Below are positions 10,721 through 27,483 of a DNA stretch of 64,000 nucleotides, piece after piece. The stretch is from Cellvibrio sp. 79. Lineage in GTDB: Bacteria > Pseudomonadota > Gammaproteobacteria > Pseudomonadales > Cellvibrionaceae. The DNA lies in assembly GCA_003056245.1 (NCBI GenBank), contig MVDH01000005.1, positions 137,513 through 201,512 on the forward strand. The letters are read 5' to 3'. The position numbers were made by a program, and so were the translations under genes. The notes below the pieces were generated by a model. That model saw only the letters and a program-made list of their open reading frames with translations, had not been told where the DNA came from and searched no databases. How positions within the stretch are numbered: position 1 is the first letter of the stretch; each line of letters starts with the position of its first letter.

Positions 10721-10750
10721 AAAATACCGCCTTAATGGCGGTATTTTTTT
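10721..10750. terminator. Bidirectional terminator between nfuA and the solute-binding gene
   Basis: The perfect stem AAAATACCGCC/GGCGGTATTTT with loop TTAAT has an A-run on the left and a T-run on the right. It serves both convergent genes and touches the stop of the leftward one. Confidence 0.9.
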
Positions 10751-11525
10751 AAGGCATGTTTCTCCCTATTAATTGCTCATACTCCCCTGATTCTTTCAGT
10801 ATCAACAATCCCTTATCAAACTCTTGAGATAACCACAGAGCCCTGGGACTTTTGTGTGAAAACGCCAGATAAACATCGCCGCGATGATTAAGGAAGCGCT
10901 TATCAAAACGGTTTTGGCTTTGCCCCATTTTTTTTAACGCAAATTCTGCTTCCCGATCAAACATCACAGCCGCATCAATGCGCCCCTGGTTTAACATGCG
11001 AATAATTTGCGACTGCTGGGTTAGCTGGACCTCTATAAATCGATGGCGGTGTAATTCATAGATATCGCCATATTCATAATCGCGAATAATTCCTACGCGA
11101 AATTTTGCCGGAATGTCCTCAATACGTTTTATCTGCGGGAACGTGCCTGGCAAAAAAAACCAATAAGACTCCACAGTAAGCAGAGGGACTTTGCCAAACA
11201 GGTATTTATCTTTGGTGGTGGATTGCAGGGTGACGTTGTATCCACCATCAATTTTCCCTGAAGAAAGATCATGCAGTACGCGCGCGTAAGGTAAAACTTG
11301 AAAGCTCGGATACAACCCCGATTTGGCGAAAGCCGCCTTGATTAACTCGGTCGATATTCCTTGTCCCTGCTCGTTGGAATAAGGGGGCCAGGAATCCTCT
11401 GCACCTAAACGGATACGAATAGATGTGTCTGTATCCTGCTTGACTTGTTCCGGTGTGGTTTCTGCATTCAAAGGCAGGCAGATAATACCTAGCAGCAGCC
11501 ATATATAAGTCCAGTATTTACTCAT
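10749..11525 (-). CDS. Periplasmic solute-binding protein (SBP_bac_3-like)
   Basis: A secreted protein of the family-3 amino-acid-binding fold, also used by polar-amino-acid ABC transporters and by sensor domains. The frame is open from 11582, but MSKYWTYIW at 11525 gives a proper signal peptide ending near NAE and has GGAG upstream, so that start is used (258 residues). Visible landmarks are AEDSWPPYSNEQGQG at the start of the binding lobe and GIIRDYEYGD in the hinge region. No ABC permease or ATPase gene is adjacent. The ligand is unknown. Confidence 0.8.
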   Translation of the reverse strand: MSKYWTYIWLLLGIICLPLNAETTPEQVKQDTDTSIRIRLGAEDSWPPYSNEQGQGISTELIKAAFAKSGLYPSFQVLPYARVLHDLSSGKIDGGYNVTLQSTTKDKYLFGKVPLLTVESYWFFLPGTFPQIKRIEDIPAKFRVGIIRDYEYGDIYELHRHRFIEVQLTQQSQIIRMLNQGRIDAAVMFDREAEFALKKMGQSQNRFDKRFLNHRGDVYLAFSHKSPRALWLSQEFDKGLLILKESGEYEQLIGRNMP

Positions 11526-11672
11526 CGGCGATATTCTCCAGCATGGACCAATACGCAATATATGACACCAGACTAATCGCATTTGGTTATATGATCAATA
11601 AGTTAAATAACGATTAAAAAGGCTGGTGGCGTCATAAACCATAAATAAAAGTTATTTTGTGCGTCAAATAGG

Positions 11673-11710
11673 AATTGTTATCATTGCAATTGGTAATGCT
11701 TATCGATAAA
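11673..11710 (+). promoter_or_regulatory. Fur-like operator upstream of the siderophore receptor
   Basis: A 19-base imperfect inverted repeat, AATTGTTATCATTGCAATT (11673-11691), is followed directly by a second AT-rich half-site, GGTAATGCTTATCGATAAA. Both resemble the Fur consensus (GATAAT repeats) and lie 50-90 bases before the receptor start. Iron repression is inferred from this and from the gene function. Confidence 0.5.
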
Positions 11711-11760
11711 ATTTGCAAAAGTTATTAATTGTAAATACCTATTACTATAAAGGCTTAGTC

Positions 11761-14136
11761 ATGACCATATCGAAGTCACCCTCAAAGCACATCGTTTCAA
11801 AAAAGCGCACCAACACGTTATCGTTAACCGTCACTGCATTATCTTCTGCGATGTTATTGGCATCTGCAGGTGTTATGGCTGCTGATGAAGCTAAAGATCC
11901 CAAAAAATTGAATGCTGTAAAAGTGGAGGCTGATGCCGACGTTGGCTCTTTTAAAGCTGAGAAGGTTAGTTCTCCCAAATTTACCCAACCCCTGGTTGAT
12001 ACCCCGCAGACTATTGTGGTTGTAAAAAAAGAATTGTTCCAGCAGCAATCCGCTACCACCCTCAGCGAAGCCCTGCGCAATACCCCGGGTATCACTATGT
12101 TGATGGGGGAGAATGGTAATACGTCAACTGGTGATTCCATTTTCATGCGCGGATTTGATACCCAGGGCAGTATTTATGTAGATGGTATTCGCGATTTGGG
12201 CAGCATTAGCCGCGACACCTTTAACACGGAGCAAGTTGAAATTGCCAAAGGTCCAGCCGGTGTTGATAACGGTCGCGGAGCTGCATCCGGTTATGTAAAC
12301 CTCAGCTCCAAATTGGCCAATCAGGAAGATGCTACCTCTGGTGCAGTAACGCTGGGAACTGCGGATTACAAGCGCGGAACTATCGATGTAAACCGTACGT
12401 TGGGCGAGAGCTCCGCTGTACGTGTAAACCTGATGAAGCAGGAAGCCGGTGTAGATGGTCGCGATGAAGTAGAAAATAACTTCCAGGGTTTTGCGGCGTC
12501 ATTGGGTCTGGGTTTGGGAACTGATACCCGCACTTACATCAATATTTTGTCGATGGAGCAATCCGGCATTCCAGACGGCGGCATTCCAACTATTGGCCTT
12601 GATGGTTATTACAATGCGATTTTTGCCACTGGTGCATTGAAAGGCCAGACTCCCGAGCGTGTAGATAGCGAAAACTTCTACGGCTCAACCAACGACTTCA
12701 ACGACGTAAAAGCCAATATGCTTACTGTGCGTATTGAGCAGGATTTGGCCGAGGGTGTAACTCTGCGCAATACTTCTCGCTATGGTCGTACCAATCAGGA
12801 TCAGGTGTTGACTGGTATTAATGCGATAACGTTCGCTACTCCGGCGAGTAAGGATACCTGGACCATTTCCCGCTCTCGTCAGGGCAAAGATCAAACTAAC
12901 CAGATTTTGACTAACCAAACTAACCTGACTGCTTCGTTTGATGCGGGTGGCGTTAAGCATGATCTGGTTTCCGGTGTTGAGTTTGTTTACGAAAGCCAAC
13001 TGAATTACACCTTGGGTATTCCGTTTGTATCGCCGACCTCATCAACAACAGCAACTCAGATTAACGCAAACCTTTATAGCCCTAAAACGGGTGATGTATT
13101 CCAGCCGGTTCATCGCACTGGTGCAAAGACTGACGGTGAAACTACCACCTATGCTTTCTACGCACAGGACACTATTTCGTTCAATGAGCAGTGGGAATTG
13201 AGTGCAGGTATTCGTGCGGATCGCTTCCACACCAAGACTGATGTAATTACCCGTCAGGCGGCAGTGACCGCACCAGCGCCACAAACTATTCCAGTAGGCA
13301 CTTTATTGGCGAGTGATGCGCATCTGACCGACGAATTATTCGGTTGGAAATTGGGCGGCGTGTACAAGCCAACAACAAATGGATCTGTTTATGTAAGCTA
13401 CGCAACTTCCGAGCTGCCACCGGGTGGTGCGAACTTTGCGTTGAACACTACTAACGCAGCCAACAATATCAACAACCCTAACCTTGATCCGCAGGAAGGT
13501 ACTAACGCTGAGTTGGGTACCAAGTGGAATGTGTTGAACAATAAATTGTTCCTGACAGCCGCTTTGTTCCGTAGCACTAACGAAAATGAAATTGCAACCA
13601 ACCCCGATGGCTCATCAGTTGCTATCGGTGAAAAACAAGTGGAAGGTTTGGAGTTGGGTGCTGTTGGTTCATTGACTGACAAATGGCAAATCAGTGCCGG
13701 CCTCGCGTTTATGGATAACGAGATTACCCGTGGCAACCGCACTGTTGATGATCCAAACACTACCGCTAACGAAGCTTCAGGCAATAACGAAGGCGGTGCA
13801 ATTCAGTGGTCACCCAAAACGACTTTCACTTTGTGGAATAGCTATACCTTCGAAGGTGGTTTGGTAATTGGTGGCGGTGCACGTTATATAGATACGATGG
13901 TTAGTTCCAGCGTTGTGAATTCAACCGCACTGAGCACTCGTTCTGTACTTGAATTTGGCGATTACTGGGTGTTGGATGCAATGGCTTCCTACCCGATTAA
14001 TAAAAACATCAATATTCAGTTGAACGTCCTCAACATTACCGACGAAGATTACGTTGGTAGCTTGAATAACGGTGGTTCACGCTATTATCCAGGTGCCCCA
14101 TTGTCTGCACGTTTAGGTGTTAACTTCGCATTCTAA
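11761..14136 (+). CDS. fiu: Fiu/PiuA-type TonB-dependent catecholate siderophore receptor
   Basis: An outer membrane beta-barrel receptor that imports ferric catecholates using TonB energy. ATG 11761 is chosen over the frame start at 11713 because AAGG precedes it. A long signal peptide ends near VMAADE. The plug domain (about residues 40-200) has PQTIVVVKKE, the MRGFDTQGSIYVDGIRD segment and the RDTFNTEQVE motif, strongly like E. coli Fiu; DGGIPTIGL in the barrel is also Fiu-like. The barrel closes with a C-terminal Phe (NFAF). The next gene is piuC, exactly as in fiu-ybiX of E. coli and piuA-piuC of Pseudomonas. A Fur-like site lies upstream. Confidence 0.93.
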   Translation: MTISKSPSKHIVSKKRTNTLSLTVTALSSAMLLASAGVMAADEAKDPKKLNAVKVEADADVGSFKAEKVSSPKFTQPLVDTPQTIVVVKKELFQQQSATTLSEALRNTPGITMLMGENGNTSTGDSIFMRGFDTQGSIYVDGIRDLGSISRDTFNTEQVEIAKGPAGVDNGRGAASGYVNLSSKLANQEDATSGAVTLGTADYKRGTIDVNRTLGESSAVRVNLMKQEAGVDGRDEVENNFQGFAASLGLGLGTDTRTYINILSMEQSGIPDGGIPTIGLDGYYNAIFATGALKGQTPERVDSENFYGSTNDFNDVKANMLTVRIEQDLAEGVTLRNTSRYGRTNQDQVLTGINAITFATPASKDTWTISRSRQGKDQTNQILTNQTNLTASFDAGGVKHDLVSGVEFVYESQLNYTLGIPFVSPTSSTTATQINANLYSPKTGDVFQPVHRTGAKTDGETTTYAFYAQDTISFNEQWELSAGIRADRFHTKTDVITRQAAVTAPAPQTIPVGTLLASDAHLTDELFGWKLGGVYKPTTNGSVYVSYATSELPPGGANFALNTTNAANNINNPNLDPQEGTNAELGTKWNVLNNKLFLTAALFRSTNENEIATNPDGSSVAIGEKQVEGLELGAVGSLTDKWQISAGLAFMDNEITRGNRTVDDPNTTANEASGNNEGGAIQWSPKTTFTLWNSYTFEGGLVIGGGARYIDTMVSSSVVNSTALSTRSVLEFGDYWVLDAMASYPINKNINIQLNVLNITDEDYVGSLNNGGSRYYPGAPLSARLGVNFAF

Positions 14137-14153
14137 TCAATTGATCGAATGCG

Positions 14154-14251
14154 AATTGTAGGGGCGCGATTTATCGCGCCCTTATGCATTACAGGATGGC
14201 AAAAATTAAAGGTAAAAACAGGGCGCAATAAATTGCACCCCTACGGGAATT
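14154..14251. repeat. Inverted-repeat element (MITE/REPIN-like) between fiu and piuC
   Basis: Two REP-like units face each other. The left unit has TGTAGGGGCGCGATTT and a perfect hairpin GGGCGCGAT-TT-ATCGCGCCC. The right unit reads, in reverse complement, CGTAGGGGTGCAATTTATTG with a matching hairpin. Both outer ends carry AATT, and about 40 AT-rich bases separate the units. The right end supplies the GGGA tract just before the piuC start. Palindromes of this GTAGGGGCGCAATTTATTGC type are widespread intergenic repeats. Confidence 0.7.
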
Positions 14252-14254
14252 GCT

Positions 14255-14935
14255 ATGTTAATTCATATTCCGGACGTCTTAACGAAACAACAGGTAGCGG
14301 AATTTCGCGCGCGTTTAAATCAAGCTGATTGGGTTGATGGCAAGGAGACTGTTGGTATTCAGGGCGCGCAGGTGAAGAAAAATCGCCAACTGCCTGTTGA
14401 TGGAATAGTGGCTCGTGAACTCGGTGAATTTATTTTAAAAGCGCTCTACGTCAATCCGGTTTTTATGTCTGCCGCGTTACCGTTGCGAATTGTTCCTCCG
14501 CTATTTAATGCTTACGCCGGTGGTGAGCATTACGGTTTCCATGTCGATGGAGCGATACGTTTAATTCCAGGCAGCAATTTGAGTTTGCGCACCGATGTTT
14601 CGTGCACATTATTCCTATCGGAACCGGATGAGTACGAAGGTGGTGAATTAATTGTTCAGGACACCTACGGCAACCACGAAGTGAAATTGCCTGCCGGTGA
14701 TTTGATTTTATATCCCTCCACCAGTTTGCATCAGGTTGAGCCAGTTACCCGCGGTGAGCGCGTGTGCAGTTTTTTCTGGACCCAAAGTATGGTGCGCGAT
14801 GATTGGCAGCGTAATTTGTTGTACGAGCTGGATTGCAATATCCAATCCCTCCGCCAAAAAGTGGGCGATAGTGAGGAAATTGTTGGTTTGACTGGTCACT
14901 ATCACAATCTGTTGCGGCAATGGGCGCAGGTTTAG
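14255..14935 (+). CDS. piuC: PKHD-type Fe(II)/2-oxoglutarate hydroxylase PiuC/YbiX
   Basis: A cytoplasmic dioxygenase of the PKHD family, commonly encoded beside Fiu/PiuA receptors. Its role in catecholate iron use is known genetically, but its substrate is not settled. The 226 residues show the Fe ligands HVD (in HYGFHVDG, near residues 98-100) and the distal His in SLHQVEP (near 159), followed by the 2-oxoglutarate-binding Arg (RGERVCSFF). The N-terminal QVKKNRQLP segment is typical. It starts directly after the repeat element and probably shares transcription with fiu. Confidence 0.95.
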
Positions 14936-15101
14936 CGATGGCATTTAAGGCTGAAGCAAGGCATTTAAAGGACAAAATCAACAATTCCAAATAAAAGGAT
15001 TTGTCGCGCCATTTGTTGTAACAGGTGAGCTACAACGGCAAAAATAAAGCGCGTAATTTCCTGGTTGGTGTAAATGTTAAATTCTGGAATATTTCTATCT
15101 C

Positions 15102-15134
15102 ACACAGGGTTCCTTCTGCAAGGAACCCTTGTGT
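15102..15134 (+). terminator. Strong hairpin between piuC and the PepSY gene
   Basis: Stem ACACAGGGTTCCTT pairs with AAGGAACCCTTGTGT through a four-base loop, with one bulged A. No T-run follows (ATTTAAAAGG), so it may be a factor-assisted terminator or an mRNA-processing or stability element; the next SD begins a few bases later. A second inverted repeat, GTTGTA/TACAAC, lies at 15015-15036. Confidence 0.5.
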
Positions 15135-15158
15135 ATTTAAAAGGTAAGTAAAAGTCGG

Positions 15159-15755
15159 ATGAAAATATATTTGGGAAGCTTGCGCGAGTGGCATTGGATC
15201 AGCTCGGCAATGTGTCTTGTCGGCATGCTGTTATTCGCCATAACGGGCATTACCCTTAATCACGCCGCACAAATCAATGCTACCCCCAAAGTTACTACAA
15301 TAGAAGCAAAAATTCCTGCTGCTATTGTAACGGGCATAAAAATTCCCACCGCAGAAAATGCGCCTTTACCAGAAGAAATAATAAATTGGTTGAATGAAAA
15401 CCAGGGCATTTATACGGGAACAAAAAATGCAGAATGGAGCGAAGATGAAATTTATCTTTCATTACCACGTCCCGGTGGTGATGCATGGTTAACAATTGAT
15501 TTAAGCACCGGTGCGCTCGAATATGAATTGACTGAGCGTGGCTGGATTTCCTATTTCAATGATTTGCACAAAGGCCGCAATACCGGCACCCCCTGGAGCT
15601 GGTTCATCGATTTTTTTGCGGTTGCCTGCATTATTTTTTGTATTACGGGTTTGCTGTTGTTAAAACGCTATGCCGGAGGGCGCCCCGCAACCTGGCCAAT
15701 GGTTGGTTTGGGCCTGGTGTTGCCCTGGATTCTGATTTTATTATTTATTCATTAA
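15159..15755 (+). CDS. Small PepSY-associated membrane protein
   Basis: A 198-residue inner membrane protein with an N-terminal helix at about residues 14-32, a periplasmic PepSY-like domain (about 35-135) and two C-terminal helices (about 145-165 and 174-196). The motifs WHWISSAMC, FNDLHKGRNTG and TGLLLLKR, with the His residues in and next to the helices, are those of the PepSY_TM family. That family includes b-type haem-binding ferric reductases such as PiuB/FoxB relatives. With the separate reductase at 17355 it could form an electron path from cytoplasmic NADPH to periplasmic ferric siderophore; that is inference. Confidence 0.88.
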   Translation: MKIYLGSLREWHWISSAMCLVGMLLFAITGITLNHAAQINATPKVTTIEAKIPAAIVTGIKIPTAENAPLPEEIINWLNENQGIYTGTKNAEWSEDEIYLSLPRPGGDAWLTIDLSTGALEYELTERGWISYFNDLHKGRNTGTPWSWFIDFFAVACIIFCITGLLLLKRYAGGRPATWPMVGLGLVLPWILILLFIH

Positions 15756-15779
15756 TTAAAAATAAATGGCGAGGCTGTT

Positions 15780-16319
15780 ATGAAAAAAATGGTTATGCGT
15801 TCGCGTTTCTTTGTGTCTTCTTTTTGTGCGATTTCACTGTTGGGAGTTTCTTCCGTGCAGGCCGCTGATTTAACCGTATCTGTTGAAATTCCATCGCTCA
15901 CTGTTGCTGAATATCACACACCTTATGTTTCAGTGTGGTTGGAAAATGAAAAAGGTGAAAGTACTACGCTCGCAGTTTGGTATCAGCTTGAAGAGCGCGG
16001 CCAAAAAAGTGAAAAAGGTGAAGAGTGGTTGAAGGATATGCGCCAATGGTGGCGCCGTATTGGTCGCGAAACTGATATGCCGGTCGATGGTGTGAGTGGC
16101 GCAACGCGCAAGCCGGGGAAACATGAACTGGTTTTTACCGAAGGCAAAGCACCGCTGGGCAAGTTGGCAAAAGGGAATTATGTATTGTTGGTTGAAGCGG
16201 CGCGTGAAGTTGGGGGGCGTGAATTAGTAAAAGTCCCTTTCACATGGCCAGTAGCGGGCGAGCAAAGTGCCAAAGGCAGCGCCGAATTGGGTGAAATTAA
16301 AATTATCGTAAATCCGTAA
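15780..16319 (+). CDS. Exported DUF2271 protein
   Basis: A periplasmic protein with a signal peptide (residues 1 to about 28, ending VQAAD) and a DUF2271 beta-sandwich-like domain. YHTPYVSVWLEN, the RQWWRRIGRETD segment and DGVSGATRKPG are its recognisable blocks. Function is unknown in the family, which co-occurs with PepSY membrane proteins and DUF4198 in iron loci. GAGG precedes the ATG and the gene follows the PepSY gene by 24 bases, so they form one operon. The VSGAT sequence recalls flavinylation sites of the FMN-binding type, but the context differs and I do not claim FMN attachment. Confidence 0.85.
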   Translation: MKKMVMRSRFFVSSFCAISLLGVSSVQAADLTVSVEIPSLTVAEYHTPYVSVWLENEKGESTTLAVWYQLEERGQKSEKGEEWLKDMRQWWRRIGRETDMPVDGVSGATRKPGKHELVFTEGKAPLGKLAKGNYVLLVEAAREVGGRELVKVPFTWPVAGEQSAKGSAELGEIKIIVNP

Positions 16320-16389
16320 TCACCACATGAATCGCTTTTGTCGTGAATGGAATAACTTTTATATCGAACTGAGTAATTAGAGGAGAATA

Positions 16390-17220
16390 ATGATGAATAA
16401 GTTTTTGAAAGCATCACTCTGTACTGCGCTGGTTATGTGTTTGCCTTTAAGTGCACAAGCGCATCGTGCCTGGTTGTTGCCGAGTGCAACAGTGCTCTCC
16501 AGTGACGACGCATGGGTGAGTGTCGATGCTGCAGTGTCGAATGATATTTTTCATGCTGATCACGCACCAATGGGTGTGGATGGCATAACAATTACTGCAC
16601 CGGATGGCACTAGCCTTACGCCGCAAAATAGCATCACCGGAAAATTCCGCAGCGTATTTGATGTGCAATTGCCGCAAAAAGGCACCTACAAAATTGCGCT
16701 CGCTTCTTCAGGGATTATGGCGACCTGGAAAACCCCGGAAGGTGAGCGTCGTATGTGGCCTGGTCGTGGCGAAAAAGCGAATCCTGCTGATCTGGAAAAA
16801 AATATTCCTAAAGATGCAAAGGAATTGCAGGTGTCACAATTCTCTCGCCGCATGGAAACTTTTGTAACTTCTGGTACTCCAGATGACAAGGTGTTGAAAG
16901 CAACCAAACAAGGCTTGGAATTGGTGCCAATCACTCACCCGAATGATTTGTTTGCAGGCGAGGCGGCTAAATTTCAATTTTTAATTGATGGTAAACCGGC
17001 GGAAGGGGTCAAGGTTACGGTAATTCCCGCTGGTATGCGCTATCGCAATAGTCAAGCGGCGATTGAAGTGCAAACCGACAAAAAAGGCGAATTATCCGTT
17101 ACCTGGCCGCAAGCAGGTATGTACTGGTTAAGCGCAAATTATCGCGATGATAAAGCGAAAAAACCGGCGACCTCCCGCAGTGGTAGTTATGCTGCAACGT
17201 TTGAAGTATTGCCGGAGTAA
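16390..17220 (+). CDS. Exported DUF4198 protein
   Basis: A periplasmic 276-residue protein: signal peptide to about residue 24 (SAQAHRAWLLPS) and a DUF4198 domain, a family of Ni/Co/Fe-associated periplasmic proteins of mostly unproven role. His25 immediately after the predicted cleavage site could be a metal ligand, as in related beta-sandwich proteins; this is inference. The C-terminal part (GEAAKFQFLIDGKPAEGVKVTVIP) has the look of a second immunoglobulin-like domain. AGGAG fits either ATG 16390 or 16393. It probably shares the operon with the DUF2271 gene 70 bases upstream. Confidence 0.85.
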   Translation: MMNKFLKASLCTALVMCLPLSAQAHRAWLLPSATVLSSDDAWVSVDAAVSNDIFHADHAPMGVDGITITAPDGTSLTPQNSITGKFRSVFDVQLPQKGTYKIALASSGIMATWKTPEGERRMWPGRGEKANPADLEKNIPKDAKELQVSQFSRRMETFVTSGTPDDKVLKATKQGLELVPITHPNDLFAGEAAKFQFLIDGKPAEGVKVTVIPAGMRYRNSQAAIEVQTDKKGELSVTWPQAGMYWLSANYRDDKAKKPATSRSGSYAATFEVLPE

Positions 17221-17255
17221 TCGGATAGGAATAGCTTTGTTTGCTGTGATGTAAC

Positions 17256-17322
17256 GCGTTGGTGAACTCAATAATGTGAGTGTAAAGATTGCACTGTATT
17301 CACTGAGTTCACCAGCGCATTT
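17256..17322 (+). terminator. Long hairpin after the DUF4198 gene
   Basis: GCGTTGGTGAACTCA and TGAGTTCACCAGCGC are 15-base arms with one mismatch. They are separated by about 32 bases that hold a further short GTGA/TCAC pairing. A short ATTTTT follows. It is probably a terminator or processing site between the DUF4198 gene and the reductase gene. Confidence 0.5.
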
Positions 17323-17354
17323 TTCCGGCGTGCAAAAATCTGAAAGGTTTATCT

Positions 17355-18857
17355 GTGCATTATATTGCTGCCAGTATTTTATTTATTTTTTACCTCGCAT
17401 TTTGTTGGTTTTGCTGGCGAAAGTATGAAGCTCGCCAGCAACAATTATTCGTTCAATATCAAACGGAATCCGCTGCATCTCAGGTCGTTATCGCTTACGC
17501 AAGCCAGTCTGGATCTGCTGCTATGTTTGCCAGCCAAACCGCATTGCAGCTACAGGCTGCAGGAATGGCAAGCCACCGTGTAAGCTTGAATCAACTTACG
17601 CCAGAATTATTAATGCAGGCTAAAACCCTGTTGGTTATCGCCAGCACTTATGGTGAAGGCGAGGCTCCGGATAATGGTGATCGCTTTATTGCACGCACGC
17701 TGGGCAAATTAAAACAACATTCATTGCAGCATTTGCAAGTTGCTGTGCTCGGTTTGGGCGATTCTTCCTACCAATATTTTTGCGGTTTTGCCCATCAGTT
17801 GCAGCATGGATTACAGCATCGCGGTGCGCATTTTTTTACCGATGTTATTGAAGTCGATAAGCTGGAAGAAAGCGCTCTGCGCCACTGGCAATATTATCTT
17901 GGACAAATTTCCGGTCAATCGCATTACGCTGATTGGAGCAAGCCTGAATATGGTCAATGGAAAATAGTGCAGCGTGAATGCATTAATCCCGGTAGCCCGG
18001 GTGCGCCTGTATTCCATATCAAATTAATTCCTATAGAAGGAGCAACTCCTGTTGATGCATGGAATGCAGGTGATATTGCTGAAATAGGGCCGGGCAATAG
18101 CGAACAACTGATCCAAAATTTTTTGCAAGTTTTGGGGCGTGAAACTATTCCCCAGGAAAAGTTGTTGCATAGCGACTTGATGATTAGTGATGATCGCTTT
18201 GCACAACTTAAAACGCTGGATGATGATGCATTATTGGCTTCACTTAATGAGTTGCCTCATCGCGAATACTCCATTGCATCGGTGCCGGCTGAAAATTCCC
18301 TCGATTTACTGGTGCGTCAGGTCAAAATTGCTCCGGAACAATTTGGTTTGGGTTCCGGTTGGTTGAGCGTACATGCGCAATTACATCAGCCGATTCGATT
18401 GCGAATTCGTACCAATTCGCATTTTCACTCCCCGGCAAATAATTGCCCGCTGATTCTTATTGGCAATGGCACGGGCATCGCCGGTTTGCGCTCGCATTTG
18501 GCGAATCCGGTGCGCGCAGGAACATCTAACTGGTTGTTATTCGGTGAGCGCACTGCCGCCGCAGACAGTTTTTTCAACAGCGATATTCTTCATTGGCAAA
18601 AAACAGGATTGCTAACGCGTGTTGATCGAATATTTTCACGCGATGCCCAGCCCGGCAGTGCACATTATGTGCAGGATTTGCTGCAACCAAATGCGCAGGA
18701 AATCCAGCGTTGGGTGAAGGAGGGCGCAGCAATATTTGTATGCGGCAGCTTGCACGGTATGGCTCAGGCCGTCGATGTGGAGTTACGCAATATTATCGGC
18801 GCGCAGCAACTGGAAATGATGGCAGACCAGCGTCGGTATTGCCGCGATGTTTATTGA
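17355..18857 (+). CDS. Membrane-anchored flavodoxin/FNR reductase (sulfite reductase alpha-like)
   Basis: A diflavin oxidoreductase of the CysJ/cytochrome-P450-reductase type, predicted to pass electrons from NADPH through FAD to FMN. One N-terminal membrane helix (about residues 3-22) is followed by a flavodoxin domain (ASQSGSA phosphate loop near 50; ASTYGEGEAPD). The FAD domain has HREYSIASV near 305. The NADPH domain has GNGTGIAGLRSH, CGSLHGMA and a terminal RRYCRDVY. Its 500 residues are shorter than CysJ because much of the connecting domain is missing. No sulfite reductase haem subunit lies nearby, so ferric-siderophore reduction is the likelier role. A paralogue is fused to PepSY at 23827. 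Confidence 0.88.
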   Translation: MHYIAASILFIFYLAFCWFCWRKYEARQQQLFVQYQTESAASQVVIAYASQSGSAAMFASQTALQLQAAGMASHRVSLNQLTPELLMQAKTLLVIASTYGEGEAPDNGDRFIARTLGKLKQHSLQHLQVAVLGLGDSSYQYFCGFAHQLQHGLQHRGAHFFTDVIEVDKLEESALRHWQYYLGQISGQSHYADWSKPEYGQWKIVQRECINPGSPGAPVFHIKLIPIEGATPVDAWNAGDIAEIGPGNSEQLIQNFLQVLGRETIPQEKLLHSDLMISDDRFAQLKTLDDDALLASLNELPHREYSIASVPAENSLDLLVRQVKIAPEQFGLGSGWLSVHAQLHQPIRLRIRTNSHFHSPANNCPLILIGNGTGIAGLRSHLANPVRAGTSNWLLFGERTAAADSFFNSDILHWQKTGLLTRVDRIFSRDAQPGSAHYVQDLLQPNAQEIQRWVKEGAAIFVCGSLHGMAQAVDVELRNIIGAQQLEMMADQRRYCRDVY

Positions 18858-18981
18858 TCATTTGTGGCTGCAATAGATTGTTGCAGATTGTGAAACAAGT
18901 GTTCATTTAATCCCTGTGCGGCCTTTTCAAATCATGCATAAGGTATACTCGCGCCCATAAAACACTGGACGAGAAAATATT

Positions 18982-20388
18982 ATGCAAGCCCGCGGATTTC
19001 CCCTCTCTTTTTTGCGTCGACCAAAAGGTTTGGCGCTGTTGACCCTGGTACTGTTAATCGTTATTTGGCTGTTGTGGAAGCTTGCGTTTGGCAAGGATGA
19101 AAACGAAGTCGTTTTCACCACAGAAACAGTCACCCGTGGCGATATTGAAAATCTGGTAACGGCTACCGGTACTTTGCAACCGCAGGATTATGTGGATGTG
19201 GGTGCACAGGTTTCCGGTCAGCTTAAAAAACTGCACGTTGAAGTAGGAAGCGAAGTTAAAGCAGGGGATTTACTTGCTGAAATTGATGCAACCGTTTATG
19301 CCGCAAAAGTGGACGCAACGCGCGCGCAGTTGCAAAACCAGAAAGCACAACTGTTGGATCGCGAAGCCCAGTTGAAATTAGCCGAGATTAATTTCAAGCG
19401 CGAACAAAATTTATTTGCTGAAGATGCAACTACGAGTGAATCATTGGAAACAGCGGATGCCGGTTTGAAATCCGCGCGTGCGCAACTTAAGTCATTACAA
19501 GCACAAATTGCACAGATCGAATCCACGTTGCGTGTAGAAGCGGCGAACCTCGACTACGCAAAAATTTATGCCCCTATGGACGGCACCGTTGTGTCCATCA
19601 CTTCACGTCAAGGTCAAACGCTTAACACCAACCAAATGGCCCCCACCATCATGCGTGTGGCTGACCTTTCCACCATGACGGTACAAACCCAGGTCTCTGA
19701 AGCGGACATCGGTAAATTGCGTAAGGAGATGGATGTTTATTTCACTACTTTGGGCAGCCAGGGGCGTCGTTGGTACAGCAAGCTGGATCGTATTCAACCT
19801 ACACCGGAAATTCTCAATAACGTTGTTTTGTATAACGCGCTTTTCGATGTGCCGAATGAAAGCCGTTTGCTGATGACGCAAATGAGCACGCAGGTGTTTT
19901 TTATTGAATCGCAAGCGAAAGATGTGTTGTTAGTGCCTATGTCTGCAATCAGCTTTGCTCCATTGCGCGGCCCACGTGGCGCGCCTCAGGATGGAAAGTC
20001 GCAAGGCGAAAAACAACCGGCTGAAAATATTCAAAGTGAAAAACCATCAGTGGAAAAAAGTTCTGCTACTCCTGCGCAAGCAAAACCGGAATTTGCGACT
20101 GCCCGTCCCGATGGTGCTCCAAACGATGAATGGAAAGGTCGTCGCGATAGAGGCGAATCCCAGGCTGCAACAAATCGTCCACGCCCCGCTATGGTAAAAG
20201 TGATGGATGAAGATGGTGATGTTGAAGAGCGTAAAGTATTGGTGGGTGTTACCAATCGTGTGCAAGCGCAAATCATTGAAGGTTTGAACGAAGGTGAAAA
20301 AGTTGTCAGTGGTAGCACTAAACCCAATCAGGTAAAAGTTGCACCAGCAGGTGGTTTTGGTGGCGGCCCGGGAATGGGTAGACGTTAA
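18982..20388 (+). CDS. macA: MacA/PvdR-like periplasmic adaptor of an ABC exporter
   Basis: Membrane fusion protein that bridges a MacB-type transporter and an outer membrane channel. One N-terminal helix at about residues 13-31 anchors it. The lipoyl and barrel-sandwich parts ([23 protein letters not shown]) flank an alpha-hairpin at about 100-185. A charged, Pro/Gln-rich insert of about 80 residues (roughly 325-405) interrupts the membrane-proximal part; it is longer than I expect in MacA. The C-terminus is Gly-rich. A TATACT -10-like box lies at 18944-18949. The stop and the macB start overlap as TAATG. Confidence 0.92.
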
Positions 20389-22331
20389 TGACCACAGCTA
20401 ATTCAATTCAACCGCTGATTAAATTATCCGGCGTTACCAAAACCTTTCGCAATGGTGAAATTGCAACCCAGGTTTTGCACGGCGTTGATCTTGAAATTTA
20501 CCCCGGCGAATTTGTTGCCATCATGGGACAATCGGGTTCTGGCAAATCTACCTTGATGAATATTCTTGGTTGCCTTGACCGTGCGAGCACCGGCGAATAT
20601 TTATTTAATGGTACCAGCGTAGCAACGCTGGATACTGATGGCCTCGCACAATTGCGCCGCGAAGCATTTGGTTTTGTATTCCAGAGTTATAACTTGCTGG
20701 CAGGTTCTACGGCATGCGAAAACGTGGAAATGCCGGCGACTTATTCAGGGATGACACCTGAAGCGCGCCGCGAACGCTCTACAGCACTATTAAGCTCACT
20801 GGGATTGCAGGAACGTTTGCATCATCGCCCCAATCAATTATCCGGTGGCCAACAGCAGCGCGTTTCAATTGCACGTGCGTTGATGAATGGTGGCCAGATA
20901 ATCCTTGCTGATGAACCCACCGGTGCATTGGATAGTCACAGCGGTAAAGAAGTGATGCGCTTGCTGAAAGAATTATCCGCGCAAGGGCACACTATTATTT
21001 TGATCACTCATGATGCAGACGTGGCACATCATGCGCAGAGGTTAATTGAAATTCGCGATGGAAAAATTATCGCTGATCCCGGTCCTGCAATTCCTGATCA
21101 TTTGCCGGCAGAGGAGCATGCCCTGCATGGTGCCCCGCAAATTAAAACGGAAATTCTGGAAGCAACCAAAACAGCATTTCGCTCATTGCGCAGTAATGTA
21201 TTTCGCACAATATTAACGTTATTGGGCATCGTGATTGGCGTAGCCTCTGTAATTAGTATGCTTGCAATTGGCGATGGTGCAAAAAAATCGGTGGTGGATA
21301 GCATCAGTGCAATGGGCAGTAATTTACTGCTAGTGCGGCCCGGCGGCCCAATGCAACGCTTTCGCTGGGACTCGGTAACCCTGGTACCGGAAGACGTCGA
21401 TGCAATTGCAACTTTGCCCCATGTTGCCGCAGCATTACCCGAACTTAATGGCAGTTTTACGTTGCGCTACGGCAACGTGGACCACGCTACTGAAATCAGT
21501 GCAACTGCTGCGCAATTTCCCATGGCTCGCAAATGGGATGTGGCCCAGGGTACTTTCTTTACTGATGAAGACAACAAAAACTATGCAACCGTTGTGGTGT
21601 TAGGTAAAACCGTCGCCACCAAATTATTTGCGGATAAAAATCCGCTGGGTGAATTTATTATCATCAATAACGTGTTGTTTCAGGTTATTGGTGTGATGAG
21701 TGAGCGCGGTGCCGATCCAGGCGGGCAAGACCAGGACGATAAAGTATTTGTCCCTTTCAATACTGGCAGCTTGCGTGTAATTGGCCAACGTTTCTTACGC
21801 AACATCACGATTTCGGTTGACGATGAAAAAAATATGGAAGAGGTGCAAACCCGTGTGCATGCATTAATGATGGAGCGTCACGGCACTGAAGATTTCCAGA
21901 TTCGCAGTATGTCATCGTTAATCGATATGGTTTCTGAAACGCAAAATACCATGACGTTTTTGCTGGGCTCCATCGCGGCGATTTCGCTGCTCGTAGGCGG
22001 TATAGGTGTAATGAATATTATGCTGGTGAGTGTTACCGAGCGAACGCGGGAAATTGGTGTGCGTATGGCGACTGGTGCGCGCACGCGCAATATTATGCAA
22101 CAGTTTTTAATTGAAGCATTGGTTGTGTCTGCGCTCGGTGGTGTGATTGGTGTAGTAATTGGATTAAGTACAGCTATGTTAATTGCCAAATTCGGTACGC
22201 CAGTGGCCTATTCATTTGGTCCGGTGATTATGGCGTTTAGCTGTGCGTTTTTAACAGGTTTGTTGTTTGGTTATTTGCCTGCACGCAAAGCGGCCCGTCT
22301 CGATCCGGTTGCAGCGTTGGCGACGGAGTAA
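20388..22331 (+). CDS. macB: MacB/PvdT-like ABC exporter, fused ATPase and permease
   Basis: A 647-residue inner membrane transporter of the MacB mechanotransmission type. The ATPase has GQSGSGKS (Walker A, near 49), LSGGQQQR (signature, near 152) and [12 protein letters not shown] (Walker B). The permease half has one helix near 275, a large periplasmic domain (about 300-520), and three C-terminal helices (about 525-640). The family exports macrolides, peptides, enterotoxin or, as PvdT, pyoverdine. Its position beside a siderophore receptor and reductases favours siderophore recycling or export, but that is inference from context only. Confidence 0.94.
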
Positions 22332-22336
22332 TGGTT

Positions 22337-23761
22337 ATGCAATTACACAAGAAAACATTATTGGTGAAAAAACTGGCATGTAAAATATTGCCATTGGTTA
22401 TTGCATCATTCTTTATTGCTGCGTGCTCATCTACCCAGGTGCAAAAACCGGATATTAATTATGCGAGTCATTATTCCGTAGTGCCTGTTCAGTCAGGAAT
22501 CGAAAATGCGGTTGTAGATTCAAGCTGGTGGCAGTCATTTCAATCGCCTGCATTAAATAATTTGATGCAGGCCGCGCAGCAACAAAGCCCGGATTTTTTA
22601 ATCTCGGTGGAACGGGTAAAGCAGGCTGAGCTGCAAATGCGCATCGCTAATGCGAGTTTATTTCCGTCGCTATCAGCAAATGCATCGAGTAGTGAATCAC
22701 GCAATAAAGCGGATGGCAAAAGCAGTACTCGTACTGAATCGACGCGCGCCGGTGTGGGTATCAGCTATGAAATAGATTTATGGGGTGGGTTGGCCGCTGA
22801 TCGTGCGTCAGCTCGCGCTGGCTACGACGCGATGCGTTATGACCAGGACGCTGCAACCCTAAGTATTAAAGCCGCTATTGCCAATGGCTGGTTTCAATGG
22901 CTGGCGTTGCAAGAACGTATCGCCACTGCCAACAAAAATATTGCTATCGCCGAGCGCGTACAAAAAATTGTGGATGCGCGATACAACAACGGTGCAGCTA
23001 CCGCCGCTGATGTTGCACAGCAAAAAACCAATTTGTTAAGTCAGCGCTCATCGCTGCTGCCGCTGGAATTGCAAGCTCGTCAAACTCAATCGGCACTGGC
23101 GATTTTATTGGGTAAAACACCGCAAGAGTTTTCGCTTGTTGCCGGGCAATTACTGGATGTGAATGTTCCGCAAATTGCACCGGGCACTCCGGCAGATTTG
23201 GTAACCCGACGTCCGGATTTGGCGGCCAATGAAGCCGAGTTGCGTGGCGCTAATGCCGACATACACGTGGCGCGGGCAGCGCTTTTACCGGGTATTAAGT
23301 TGAGCGCTGATGCGGGGAAATCAGCCAGTGAATTATTCAGTCTGAACCCTGCAACACAAACTTCTGGTTGGGCTGTGTCCCTGGTGCAAACATTATTTAG
23401 CGGCGGGCGATTGATTAATCAAAAACGGTTGAGTGAAGCGAAGCAAGTGGAAATGGTGTTGCAATATCACAAAGCGATTTTAACCGCGCTGCAGGAAGTG
23501 GATAACGCTTTGGTAGCAGCCGATATAAGCCAGCGCCAGGAAATCAGCCAACAGGAAATTGTCGCGAATGCCGAGCGCAGCTTGCGTTTGACCGAAGCGC
23601 GTTATCGCGCGGGTACAGATGATTTGTTATCGCTGCTTGATGCGCAACGTAGCTTATTTCAAGCGCAGGATTCATTGGTGCAACAACGCTTGTCGCGTTT
23701 GAACGCAGCGGTGGATTTGTATAAATCGCTCGGGGGCGGTTGGTCGCTCGCTGCAAATTAA
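22337..23761 (+). CDS. NodT-family outer membrane efflux lipoprotein
   Basis: TolC/OprM-type channel partner of the MacAB pair before it. A lipobox (FFIAAC) near residue 30 predicts lipidation. The two outer-membrane-factor repeats follow, with the typical DSSWWQSF start, VGISYEIDLWGG, TRRPDLAANEAELRGA and TEARYRAGTDDLLSLLDAQR blocks. ATG 22337 is preferred to 22331 because GGAG then has proper spacing; either way it is translationally coupled to macB. The 474-residue length is normal. It corresponds in position to OpmQ in the PvdRT-OpmQ system. Confidence 0.93.
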   Translation: MQLHKKTLLVKKLACKILPLVIASFFIAACSSTQVQKPDINYASHYSVVPVQSGIENAVVDSSWWQSFQSPALNNLMQAAQQQSPDFLISVERVKQAELQMRIANASLFPSLSANASSSESRNKADGKSSTRTESTRAGVGISYEIDLWGGLAADRASARAGYDAMRYDQDAATLSIKAAIANGWFQWLALQERIATANKNIAIAERVQKIVDARYNNGAATAADVAQQKTNLLSQRSSLLPLELQARQTQSALAILLGKTPQEFSLVAGQLLDVNVPQIAPGTPADLVTRRPDLAANEAELRGANADIHVARAALLPGIKLSADAGKSASELFSLNPATQTSGWAVSLVQTLFSGGRLINQKRLSEAKQVEMVLQYHKAILTALQEVDNALVAADISQRQEISQQEIVANAERSLRLTEARYRAGTDDLLSLLDAQRSLFQAQDSLVQQRLSRLNAAVDLYKSLGGGWSLAAN

Positions 23762-23826
23762 CACGTTAAATTTTTAATAACGATGCACACCATGTTGTGC
23801 GGTTTTTGGGACTTGGGGGAACAAGA

Positions 23827-26346
23827 GTGAGAAACGGTTTATTCCAGATTCACTGGTTTTTGGGAATCACGGCAGGCGTAGTGTTGGCAATCGTTGGTGT
23901 TACCGGCGGCTTGATGAGTTTCGAACGGACAATCATGGAGGCGATTAGCCCCGATGTTGTACATGTGGAGGTCAATGGCGAACGCTTAACACCCGATGCG
24001 ATTGCCGAGCGCTTCAGTGCACAACGTGAAGGCGCGCGCGTCGAACAAATTACCTTATGGCCTGATGCAGATCGCAGTGCGTTAGTCCGTGTTGCGCCAC
24101 CACCCGGCGAGCGCCGTGGCGATGCAATTTATATCAATCCTTACACCGGGGAATTGTTAGGGAAGCTCACTGGCGAACAATTTTTTCGGACAGTGCGTTC
24201 GCTGCATCGTTGGTTATTAATCCCATCGGAACCTGATGGAATTAATATTGGCCGCCAGATCACCGGTTTCAGTGCGTTTGCCCTGGTTTTTTTTGCCTTG
24301 TCCGGTTTGTATTTGCGCTGGCCGCGTCGCGCATTGAATTGGCGCAACTGGTTTCGAATTGATTTCAGCTTAAAAGGCCGCAATTTTTATTGGGCATTGC
24401 ATTCGGTGATTGGTACCTGGGTGATACTCATGTATTTGCTCATGGCATTAACCGGCCTTACCTGGTCTTACAGCTGGTTTAAAAGCGGTGCATCAATTGT
24501 GTTGACGGGTGAGCCTGTGCAAGAGCGTCGCGGTTTTGGCCCGGGAAGTTCCGGCGGCAGTAAGGGGGCTGGCGGTATGGGTAATCGGGAAGGGCGAGAA
24601 GTCCGCGGTCCAGGTCGCGAAGGTAGTGAAAATCGTCGTGGCGGTGAAGGCCGTCCGGATGGTGATGGTCGCATGAACCGTGAAGGGAATATGCAGCATG
24701 AACATTCTGCATCTGCTCCTGTTAAGGTCGATAGTGCGTGGAATAGTTTTTTAACGAAAGCAGAAAATAATTTTAAATTTGCGAGCGTGACTATTCCTCG
24801 CTCGGAAAAAGATCCGGTGATGATTAACTACGTCACGCCGGATGCGACCAATGATCGCCAGCGCAGCATGATCAGCTTCAATGCACAATCCGGTGAGTTA
24901 GTCAGTGATCAACCTTATAAACCCATCGAGCCTTTGGGTAAGCGCATTATGCAAGGCATTTATGAGTTGCACACGGGTGAATGGTTTGGCACGCCCGGTT
25001 TGATTATTAATATGACTGCATCACTATTGATGCCGTTGTTCACGATCACCGGTTTCCTGTTGTATTTCGACCGTCGTAAAAAGAAACGCAATAGCAAAAG
25101 CGCTGCGGCCGGTATTGCGAATGCGCATACTGATGCAGATTATTGGATTGTGTATGCAACACAGACTGGAACAGCGGAACAACTTGCCTGGAACACAGCG
25201 ACTATTTTGCAATCCGGTGGCATTAAGGCCAGCGTAAAAAATATCGCTGCGCTGGATAAAGCTACGCTTGAATCTGCAAAGAAAATATTGTTTTTGGTGT
25301 CCACCTTCGGTGAAGGTGAAGCGCCGGATTCTGCGCGCGCTTTCGCGCGGAAATTAATGAATTCATCATTGTCCCTGAAGCAATTGCAGTTTGGTGTGCT
25401 GGCATTGGGCGATAAACGCTACGCCGATTACTGCGCATTTGCCACACACGTTGAACAATGGTTATTAGCCAATGGGGCGAGCCCGCTCTTTGCCCGCATT
25501 GATGTCGACAATGGCAATGAGCAATCGATTCACCAATGGCAGCAGCAAATTGCAACTATCAGCGGCGTGAAAAATGTAACGGCCTGGGCGGCTCCGGAAT
25601 ATGAAGAATGGCATTTGCAAAAGCGTGAATTATTGAATGCCGGTAGCGTGGGTACACCAGTTTATCGAGTGACGTTACAGCCTTCTGCGCCGGGAAATAC
25701 CCATTGGCAAGCTGGTGATATTCTCGAAATAAAACCGCACAATAATTCGGAATTGCCGCACCGTGAATATTCCATCGCTTCTTTGACAACAGATGGTCAA
25801 TTGGATCTGGTGGTGCGCCAGACATTTAATGACAAAGGCGAATTGGGCTTGGGGTCCGGTTGGTTAACCGCGACGGCGGAAGAGGGCGGTAAGGTGTTGG
25901 CGCGTATTCGTGCGAACCCATCGTTCCATGCTCCACAAACCAATTGCCCGATGATTTTAATTGGTGCTGGTACTGGCATCGCTGGTTTGCGTGCGCATTT
26001 GCATGATCGCTATTTAAAAGACCAGCAACAAAACTGGTTGATTTTTGGAGAGCGCCAGCGCAGCAAAGACCGCCTGTTTGGACACGAACTGGATGCATGG
26101 CAGCAATCAGGTTTCCTCACTGAGTTGGATGAAGTTTATTCGCGCGATGGTGACGGCTATGTGCAAAATATATTGGGTACAAAGCAACAACAATTATGTG
26201 AATGGCTGGATCGTGGTGCAGCCATTTATGTGTGCGGCGGAATAGCAATGGGTACCGGCATCCATCAAGTACTGGTTGCAATACTCGGCGAAAATGATGT
26301 GCAGGCCTTGATAGAAAGCAATCGTTATCGTCGCGACATTTATTAA
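23827..26346 (+). CDS. PepSY membrane domain fused to flavodoxin and FNR reductase
   Basis: An inner membrane reductase that joins in one chain what genes 15159 and 17355 hold separately. GTG 23827, preceded by GGGGGA, is preferred to GTG 23797 (839 residues). The PepSY_TM part has helices at about residues 10-30, 140-160, 190-215 and 385-405, with His residues suited to haem (HWFLG, RSLHRW, LHSVIG, ELHTGEW). A periplasmic Gly/Arg-rich insert covers about 230-300. The cytoplasmic part has a flavodoxin domain (ATQTGTAEQ, STFGEGEAPD), an FAD domain (HREYSIAS) and an NADPH domain (GAGTGIAGLRAH), ending RYRRDIY. Ferric siderophore reduction across the membrane is the likely role. Confidence 0.9.
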   Translation: MRNGLFQIHWFLGITAGVVLAIVGVTGGLMSFERTIMEAISPDVVHVEVNGERLTPDAIAERFSAQREGARVEQITLWPDADRSALVRVAPPPGERRGDAIYINPYTGELLGKLTGEQFFRTVRSLHRWLLIPSEPDGINIGRQITGFSAFALVFFALSGLYLRWPRRALNWRNWFRIDFSLKGRNFYWALHSVIGTWVILMYLLMALTGLTWSYSWFKSGASIVLTGEPVQERRGFGPGSSGGSKGAGGMGNREGREVRGPGREGSENRRGGEGRPDGDGRMNREGNMQHEHSASAPVKVDSAWNSFLTKAENNFKFASVTIPRSEKDPVMINYVTPDATNDRQRSMISFNAQSGELVSDQPYKPIEPLGKRIMQGIYELHTGEWFGTPGLIINMTASLLMPLFTITGFLLYFDRRKKKRNSKSAAAGIANAHTDADYWIVYATQTGTAEQLAWNTATILQSGGIKASVKNIAALDKATLESAKKILFLVSTFGEGEAPDSARAFARKLMNSSLSLKQLQFGVLALGDKRYADYCAFATHVEQWLLANGASPLFARIDVDNGNEQSIHQWQQQIATISGVKNVTAWAAPEYEEWHLQKRELLNAGSVGTPVYRVTLQPSAPGNTHWQAGDILEIKPHNNSELPHREYSIASLTTDGQLDLVVRQTFNDKGELGLGSGWLTATAEEGGKVLARIRANPSFHAPQTNCPMILIGAGTGIAGLRAHLHDRYLKDQQQNWLIFGERQRSKDRLFGHELDAWQQSGFLTELDEVYSRDGDGYVQNILGTKQQQLCEWLDRGAAIYVCGGIAMGTGIHQVLVAILGENDVQALIESNRYRRDIY

Positions 26347-26365
26347 TTTGTAAAAATTTCAAATT

Positions 26366-26397
26366 TAAAAAGCCCTCCATCGCGAGGGCTTTTTTTA
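26366..26397 (+). terminator. Intrinsic terminator of the iron cluster
   Basis: Stem AAAAAGCCCTC/GAGGGCTTTTTTT with a six-base loop lies 20 bases after the PepSY-reductase stop, marking the end of the whole rightward cluster. Confidence 0.9.
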
Positions 26398-26475: not shown

Positions 26476-27483
26476 ATGAACACTAAAGCGGTGGCGTTGT
26501 TTGTTCGGTTTTCTTCGGTGTCTCGTTACTTGCTGCTGGGCTCTGCGCTTATGGGTAGCCAGGTTGCAGTTGCTGAACGCAACTGGTTTTCAGCGAGTTG
26601 GGAAAATGATCTGGTCGCAGGGAAAGACGGTGGTGGTTACACCAACGGTATCTATTTTTCCCTGGGGCAGCGCAATGATCCCGGTGAAGAAATTACCCAA
26701 TCACCTTTATTGACGTTGCCATTGGCGTGGATGGTGGATGATGATCCAACCTACGCTTACAAATTGCACTCGTTAGGGCAGGCGATGATTACACCGGAAG
26801 ATATCACCAAGGAAATTCCTGACCCTGCTGATGCGCCTTACGCAGGTTTGTTGTATCTGCGCTCCACCTACGTCGTAGTAAAAAATGACTTTTCAGATCA
26901 CGTCGCAACATTAGTAGGAATTGTTGGCCCTTCGTCGCGCGCCGAGGAAACGCAAAAGTTTGTACACAAAGTGGTGGGTTCGGAACAGCCCAAAGGTTGG
27001 GATTACCAACTTGATGATAAATTTGTCTGGCAGATTCAGCGAACGGCGGTGTGGCGTTTTTCTACAAGCGACTCGAGCCCGTTCGATGCTGTTTTGTTGG
27101 CCGACTTGGCGGGCGGAAACCTGGAATCACGGGCTGGTGCCGGGTTGTTTTTGCGGGCCGGCAGCGGCTTGGCCCGCAATTATTCGACGATGGGATTTTT
27201 ATCCAGTCGTATAAGCAATGCAGTAGCGGTGTCTGACGGTTGGTATATCTATGTTGGCGGCACAGCAAATTATGTGCATAACCAGATCCTTGTCGATGGT
27301 AATGAGTTTGGTGCGAGTGCTTCTGAAGGTTTGGAGAATTATCAATACTCGTTAATGGGGGGCATCACTTACGCGTGGCAACGTGCGAGCATCTGTTTTT
27401 CTTTCCAGTCTGATACCGATCCGAGTCAAAGCAGGACGGCACGAAAAAATTTCGGCGCGATTACATTGGCCTGGCAAATTTAA
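26476..27483 (+). CDS. LpxR-like outer membrane lipid A deacylase (DUF2219)
   Basis: Predicted outer membrane barrel that removes the 3'-acyloxyacyl group of lipid A. A signal peptide ends near VAVAERN. The mature start NWFSASWENDLVAGKDGGGYTNG carries the Asn-Asp pair and the GYTNG turn that hold active-site and Ca ligands in Salmonella LpxR. LHSLGQAMITPED has the candidate catalytic His, and PYAGLLY is another family block. GGGAAGG precedes the ATG. It is separated from thrS by a terminator and is probably independent. Confidence 0.88.
   Translation: MNTKAVALFVRFSSVSRYLLLGSALMGSQVAVAERNWFSASWENDLVAGKDGGGYTNGIYFSLGQRNDPGEEITQSPLLTLPLAWMVDDDPTYAYKLHSLGQAMITPEDITKEIPDPADAPYAGLLYLRSTYVVVKNDFSDHVATLVGIVGPSSRAEETQKFVHKVVGSEQPKGWDYQLDDKFVWQIQRTAVWRFSTSDSSPFDAVLLADLAGGNLESRAGAGLFLRAGSGLARNYSTMGFLSSRISNAVAVSDGWYIYVGGTANYVHNQILVDGNEFGASASEGLENYQYSLMGGITYAWQRASICFSFQSDTDPSQSRTARKNFGAITLAWQI

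Follow-up and report, generated by a model that had tools for sequence, protein, structure and literature searches.

The 64,000-nucleotide stretch analyzed here (the window; from contig MVDH01000005.1 of Cellvibrio sp. 79, contig C11 of genome G000 in our set) contains a run of ten genes (11761-26346, all on the + strand) that is probably a Fur-controlled operon for siderophore use, in which iron would be released in the periplasm and the freed ligand exported by a pump made of MacA, MacB and an outer membrane factor (OMF). The host, a Cellvibrio, is a soil-type bacterium. The run starts with a Fiu-type receptor and ends with a PepSY-reductase fusion, in the order receptor, piuC, PepSY, DUF2271, DUF4198, diflavin reductase, macA, macB, OMF and piuB-type fusion. 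The genes are closely packed; macA shares one base with macB, as does macB with the OMF gene. This order, the common strand and the domains had been proposed by a first-pass annotation made from the sequence alone, and Pfam and NCBIfam profile searches, on which our family assignments are based, upheld them, with no NCBIfam match for three of the ten genes. These searches detected neither a siderophore synthesis gene nor ApbE in the run; three ApbE matches lie elsewhere in G000.

That the exporter is part of the iron module is supported by its conservation beside fiu/piuC or the reductase cassette. Among 21 Cellvibrio genomes, MacB (E <= 1e-100) was found in 18 and PiuC (E <= 1e-20) also in 18; G006 had a match to neither. 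The two genes were at most 10 kb apart in 14 of the 18 MacB-bearing genomes (counted by hand from match coordinates). In G015 and G018, MacB adjoins receptor, PepSY and DUF2271 genes, with PiuC elsewhere or not found; in G008 it adjoins DUF4198 and a reductase at a contig end (L027), and in G002 a piece of MacB sits on a contig too short to show its neighbors. Receptor or reductase-cassette genes are thus next to MacB in all 17 genomes with readable surroundings. Such conservation in relatives had been set beforehand as a test of the module, and the genus passes it. One relative, L026 (Cellvibrio sp. UBA7671), has a MacB 96% identical to that of the window. Among the loci compared, the reductase part is variable and the exporter is kept. 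Three loci (L156, L157 and L159) have fiu-piuC-macAB-OMF-piuB and no DUF cassette, L146 and L148 have the DUF cassette and no PiuB fusion, and both are found in the window, L025, L142 and L147. L030 has neither, with an FMN-dependent dehydrogenase and a cytochrome b561 beside fiu-piuC, and L149 has the DUF cassette along with these two genes. The dehydrogenase adjoins piuC in L212 as well as in L030 and L149, the latter two also with the cytochrome, and could be part of a possible third electron route.

Further MacB relatives came from a scan with one genome per species (best 80 of 551 MacB loci) and from an order-level search (31 of 293 genomes matched at E <= 1e-180). In a tree of 121 MacB rows, built by a quick method and midpoint rooted, in which the branch of E. 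coli MacB is long, the MacB of the window falls within a 50-row clade from Cellvibrionaceae, other Pseudomonadales, Burkholderiales-type bacteria and Campylobacterota, leaving PvdT and E. coli MacB outside. The possibility that it is a PvdT ortholog was rejected, since PvdT (L191) is placed outside the clade with an SH-like approximate likelihood ratio test value of 98. Gene neighborhoods were counted for rows flanked by 5 kb or more on either side, using the longest flanks, which excluded 16 of the 50 clade rows and 18 of the 71 outside it. A PepSY/DUF2271 gene was found within 9 kb of MacB in 20/34 loci of the clade versus 4/53 outside (Fisher p = 2.5e-7), and a receptor in 21/34 versus 10/53 (p = 7e-5), with related loci counted as independent in these tests; both were near MacB in 18/34 versus 3/53. 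When Cellvibrio was removed, the clade still had a PepSY/DUF2271 gene within this distance in 10/23 (also counted by hand; p = 5e-4). Sets of receptor, PepSY and MacAB are present in one Comamonadaceae, one Rhodocyclaceae and one Campylobacterales locus, the last (L050) in the order receptor, weak DUF4198 (31 bits, cutoff 34), PepSY, MacA, MacB, OMF, receptor. The arrangement differs among lineages: the PepSY cassette precedes MacAB in L044, follows it in L045 and L046, and in L065 is found on the opposite strand, 7-9 kb further downstream; in L048 a PepSY protein comes directly after the OMF. No receptor was seen in L053 and L061, both on short contigs of metagenome-assembled genomes.

Some loci combine the pump with ZnuA-type binding proteins and a metal-type ABC importer. 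In L195, MacA and MacB are preceded by PepSY, DUF2271, DUF4198, DUF6162, a ZnuA-type binding protein, an ABC ATPase, an ABC-3 permease and one unassigned protein; in L197 a similar set is arranged differently, and the longest frames of the two (649 and 738 residues) are not of the size of a nonribosomal peptide synthetase (NRPS). Two Azospirillum plasmids (L252 and L253) have a sigma factor, FecR, a siderophore receptor, MacA and MacB in one arm, and a convergent arm with PepSY, two small proteins, DUF6162, a binding protein, an ATPase, a permease and a second binding protein; the gene tables, which are incomplete, list neither an NRPS gene nor an OMF over the 26 and 24 kb covered. These sets resemble in order the fpvGHJKCDEF genes plus pvdRT of Pseudomonas aeruginosa (PMC6954188). 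The proteins FpvG to FpvF were not found in the gene tables of two P. aeruginosa records, so that L195 and Azospirillum are likened to the Fpv system by gene order and family names. Both arrangements speak for release and recycling. Incidentally, the P. aeruginosa pyoverdine locus (L191, L250 and L255; CP075837.1 and NZ_CP137515.1) is on records labeled as plasmids, either by plasmid carriage or by an assembly error.

The upstream regions fit a single Fur-controlled promoter at the receptor, with a putative site. No match to the Fur consensus with three or fewer mismatches was found in the whole window, so sites were rated by their highest-scoring 19-mer and compared among loci. The Fur-like site that had been claimed in front of the run was recovered, although it is weak alone, as 11.5% of 200 shuffles also reach 13/19. 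Scores of at least 13 were found in 22 of 27 receptor upstreams (20 loci, one Cellvibrio locus being entered twice as L026 and L156, and some upstreams belonging to second receptors) versus 17 of 95 controls, which are upstreams of unassigned frames of at least 600 bases, some perhaps not genes (Mann-Whitney p = 3.5e-8). Internal upstreams reached this score in 4/18 cases for piuC, 1/17 for macA and 1/18 for macB. In Caulobacter, the homologous cassette genes are Fur repressed (PMC3751524). The strong terminator proposed behind the run was also found (-16.5 kcal/mol, z = -4.1; 1 of 200 shuffles equally stable). A simple terminator scan, whose counts in the window were no higher than in shuffles, missed this hairpin, probably owing to pairing of the T-run with the stem.

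The receptor scored 806 bits against the Fiu equivalog NF007349 (cutoff 686), and its reading frame is open from a TTG at 11713. Next to it, PiuC has four residues that are invariant in 25 homologs (H96, D98, H159 and R169) and matches the PDB entries of PiuC, 9qn1 among them; the locus has a Fiu-type receptor adjoining a PKHD oxygenase with the HxD...H motif. MacB-type transporter, adaptor and OMF stand side by side as a complete tripartite set. MacA is 43% identical to PvdR and 38% to E. coli MacA, and MacB 50% to PvdT and 46% to E. coli MacB. Against NF007826 (MacB macrolide exporter), the MacB of the window scored 690 bits and did not reach the curated cutoff of 966, so it is a member of the same superfamily and not the E. 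coli equivalog. MacA has a hydrophilic insertion of ca. 80 residues; this stretch is 8-9 residues long in both PvdR and E. coli MacA, whereas in relatives of the clade it reaches ca. 200. It was rejected as a mark of iron modules, being long in Oxalobacteraceae loci that have no reductase neighbors and short in L053 and L061.

The reductase genes form a flavinylation-type cassette, with PF16357/PF03929 membrane proteins, DUF2271 and DUF4198. In the PF16357 protein, H12 and H137 are present in all 26 homologs and H35 in 96%. A108 and T109 of DUF2271 do not vary among 26 homologs, and the motif [S/T]GA[S/T], reported together with flavinylation of this family (PMC8238504), is found in 23 of them (SGAT in the window); the other three have SAAT or TSAT and keep the threonine. 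DUF2271 is thus likely a flavin carrier, with a covalent flavin predicted on T109. In the PDB, no sequence resembled it more than weakly, and the chains retrieved were unrelated (best E 0.012). DUF4198 has a conserved His25, which is likely the N-terminus of the mature protein, and by fold search shares its fold with metal-binding proteins of solved structure; the families retrieved besides Zcp and DUF4198 have in common with it only a general beta-sandwich arrangement. The diflavin reductase is likely the electron donor to the PepSY protein. In the PiuB-type fusion, H137, H202 and H392 are at least 90% conserved in 19 rows, and 7abw, a PepSY entry that we take to be FoxB (PMC11334425), is matched by the N-terminal part (E 6e-12). 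A Gly/Arg/Glu-rich low-complexity stretch (ca. residues 245-305) lies inside its PepSY_TM part. The two separate electron-transfer chains that had been suggested are compatible with this domain content.

From these genes and their known relatives, we infer as follows what reactions take place, which ligand is used and which way it is transported. The receptor would take in the ferric complex of a siderophore that is probably a catecholate and probably often foreign. In one chain, the membrane-anchored diflavin reductase would draw electrons from NAD(P)H and hand them to the PepSY protein, which by analogy with FoxB may bind haem and would deliver them to the covalent flavin on DUF2271. In a parallel one, electrons would travel through the PiuB-type fusion. 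Both would reduce Fe(III) to Fe(II) in the periplasm, where DUF4198 may hold the freed metal, and Fe(II) would enter through FeoB (a match is present in G000) or another importer encoded elsewhere. MacA, MacB and OMF would then expel the iron-free ligand from the periplasm, so that the pumped substrate is most likely the emptied scavenger molecule. With moderate confidence, we consider recycling by MacAB-OMF the best-supported mechanism, by analogy with pyoverdine, for which recycling after periplasmic reduction is documented (PMC6954188). The module reading of the first-pass annotation stands in part, namely in the conservation of the exporter with iron genes, the Fur-type site at the receptor and the fit of two electron chains to the domains.

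Several observations weigh against recycling by this operon. G019 has fiu, piuC and a reductase and no MacB match, as does G011 with piuC and a PiuB-type reductase (on a 5.5-kb contig of a draft). No ferrous importer is encoded in the operon, and G015 has no FeoB match. The 125-bp gap before macA leaves enough space for a second promoter, and other PepSY/DUF2271 loci of G000 (C1:1991-2011 kb) lack MacAB. The MacB of the window is the sole match of G000 at E <= 1e-100 (58 of the 76 first-look candidates scored) and may therefore serve several substrates. Within the clade, 14/34 full-flank loci have no PepSY/DUF2271 gene within 9 kb, and seven Oxalobacteraceae loci and most Campylobacteraceae ones have no reductase neighbors in the DNA examined. 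These 14 loci and the wide distribution of the MacAB family would fit a general MacAB-OMF drug pump that simply happened to sit in an iron operon, which is very improbable given the conservation throughout the genus and the differing gene orders in other lineages. A role in detoxification is unlikely too, but less so: instead of recycling the ligand, the pump would expel harmful compounds brought in along with the iron complexes, such as catechols, oxidized ligands, porphyrins or siderophore-drug conjugates. MacAB-TolC pumps protoporphyrin (PMC4263509) and a linear enterobactin metabolite that protects from peroxide (PMC7403778), PiuA/PirA-type transporters are said to take plant catechols as substrates (PMC9426570), and the lack of a detected exporter in G011 and G019 would fit as well. 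However, the exporter pairs closely with reductases, beyond receptors alone, and in other lineages an FpvCDE-like importer stands beside MacAB.

The pump could also secrete a siderophore of the cell itself. PvdRT-OpmQ is also reported to export newly made pyoverdine. The claim that the module comes without synthesis genes holds for the locus and fails for the organism: G000 has, outside the locus, 17 NRPS condensation domains above cutoff, one lysine/ornithine-monooxygenase match (C1:1220608), receptors beside two NRPS regions and a cyclic-peptide exporter beside a receptor (C10:46-50 kb), so that its one MacB could also serve its own product. Still, export in G000 of the product of an NRPS cluster located elsewhere seems improbable, since the operon has no synthesis gene and the module, MacB included, is present in G004, G009 and G015 (ca. 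100% complete), where no match was found to NRPS condensation (PF00668) or lysine/ornithine monooxygenase (PF13434) domains, both at E <= 1e-10, or to the NIS synthetase (PF04183), three families besides which other routes are possible. A DHB-AMP ligase was above cutoff only in G019. One NRPS region of G000 (L237 and L238, on C12) has an FkbO/Hyg5-type chorismatase, a carbamoyltransferase and a FauA/FhuE-like receptor, and its product is possibly an undescribed siderophore or some other compound.

The component systems of the module are known. What is new is the variant in which they are combined and synthesis genes are missing; no description of receptor, PepSY reductase and MacAB together was found in the literature accessible to us, subscription papers and preprints being mostly outside the search. 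The pyoverdine system (FpvA, FpvGHJK, FpvCDEF and PvdRT-OpmQ; PMC6954188) likewise has a receptor, a PepSY-type periplasmic reductase (FpvG is of PepSY type; PMC10866019) and a MacAB-OMF-type pump. In contrast, the window has a Fiu-type receptor, an added DUF2271/DUF4198 chain, a MacB outside the PvdT branch and everything in one run, which lacks the synthesis genes found at the PvdRT locus and the FpvCDEF importer. Caulobacter CC_3059-3063 (PepSY-type, DUF2271, DUF4198, ApbE and flavoprotein reductase) has the same genes in the same order save ApbE, which is frequent in such PepSY-like flavinylation clusters and not always present (PMC3751524, PMC8238504 and PMC12004947), but in the window the cassette is joined to fiu-piuC and MacAB-OMF. 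The adjacency of receptor and PKHD oxygenase is the same in the pairs Fiu-YbiX, PiuA-PiuC and CciT-CciO (PMC12004947), for which the available text does not mention an exporter, whereas here MacAB-OMF follows. MacAB-TolC, which in Salmonella secretes a linear enterobactin metabolite (PMC7403778), is likewise a full tripartite set; the pump of the window differs in having its own OMF gene, an iron operon and the long hydrophilic insertion in MacA. DUF2271, DUF4198, PiuC and MacAB are thereby tied into one unit. That foreign siderophores may be recycled has been suggested, in a case where the efflux system had yet to be investigated (PMC10866019), and this locus and its relatives, some in genomes with no match to the three synthesis families, provide candidate pumps for it. 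They also bear on the possible expulsion of catechol siderophore-drug conjugates. As a tentative and rather doubtful generalization, members of two or more phyla, Pseudomonadota and Campylobacterota among them, might catch, strip and re-export intact siderophores that they need not make, by a dedicated MacAB-type pump; a foreign siderophore would then be a reusable shuttle, handed back to the community and not consumed.

Features of the ten-gene run and its borders (positions in the window)
Feature	Position	Strand	Evidence or remark
Divergent solute-binding protein family 3 gene	10749..11582	opposite to operon	left border
Fur-like site	11686..11704		13/19 consensus bases
Fiu-type catecholate TonB-dependent receptor	11761..14136	+	NF007349, Pfam plug + barrel
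PiuC/YbiX PKHD-type Fe(II)/2-oxoglutarate oxygenase	14255..14935	+	NF003975 above cutoff
PepSY_TM_like_2 membrane protein, likely electron carrier	15159..15755	+	PF16357, 5.6e-83
DUF2271 periplasmic-type protein, DGVSGAT motif, predicted covalent flavin on T109	15780..16319	+	
DUF4198 protein, metal-binding fold	16390..17220	+	
Flavodoxin/NAD(P)H diflavin reductase, hydrophobic N-terminus	17355..18857	+	Pfam, NCBIfam
MacA-type periplasmic adaptor	18982..20388	+	Pfam, NCBIfam
MacB-type ABC transporter	20388..22331	+	PF12704, ABC_tran, FtsX
NodT-type outer membrane factor	22331..23761	+	TIGR01845, 327 bits vs cutoff 210
PiuB-type PepSY_TM reductase + flavodoxin + NAD-binding fusion	23797..26346	+	PF03929, 1.8e-60
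Intrinsic terminator	26367..26394	+	hairpin energy
LpxR-type gene	26476..27483		right border, after terminator

Beyond the right border, the frame at 27634-29559 is presumably thrS. The gene at the left border has counterparts of ca. 256-275 amino acids at the same place, on the opposite strand, in several relatives. The gap between fiu and piuC contains, at 14160-14241, two similar G+C-rich inverted repeats resembling repetitive extragenic palindromic elements (GGGGCGCGATTTATCGCGCCC and GGGCGCAATAAATTGCACCCC), and a 10-pair hairpin with no good T-run (15106-15129), which could damp read-through downstream, is located in the gap between piuC and PepSY. Elsewhere in G000, the region C1:1991-2011 kb (L154) has a first set made of a receptor and a PepSY protein and a second one with a receptor, an ApbE-DUF2271 protein, an EF-hand protein and DUF4198, with no MacAB seen.

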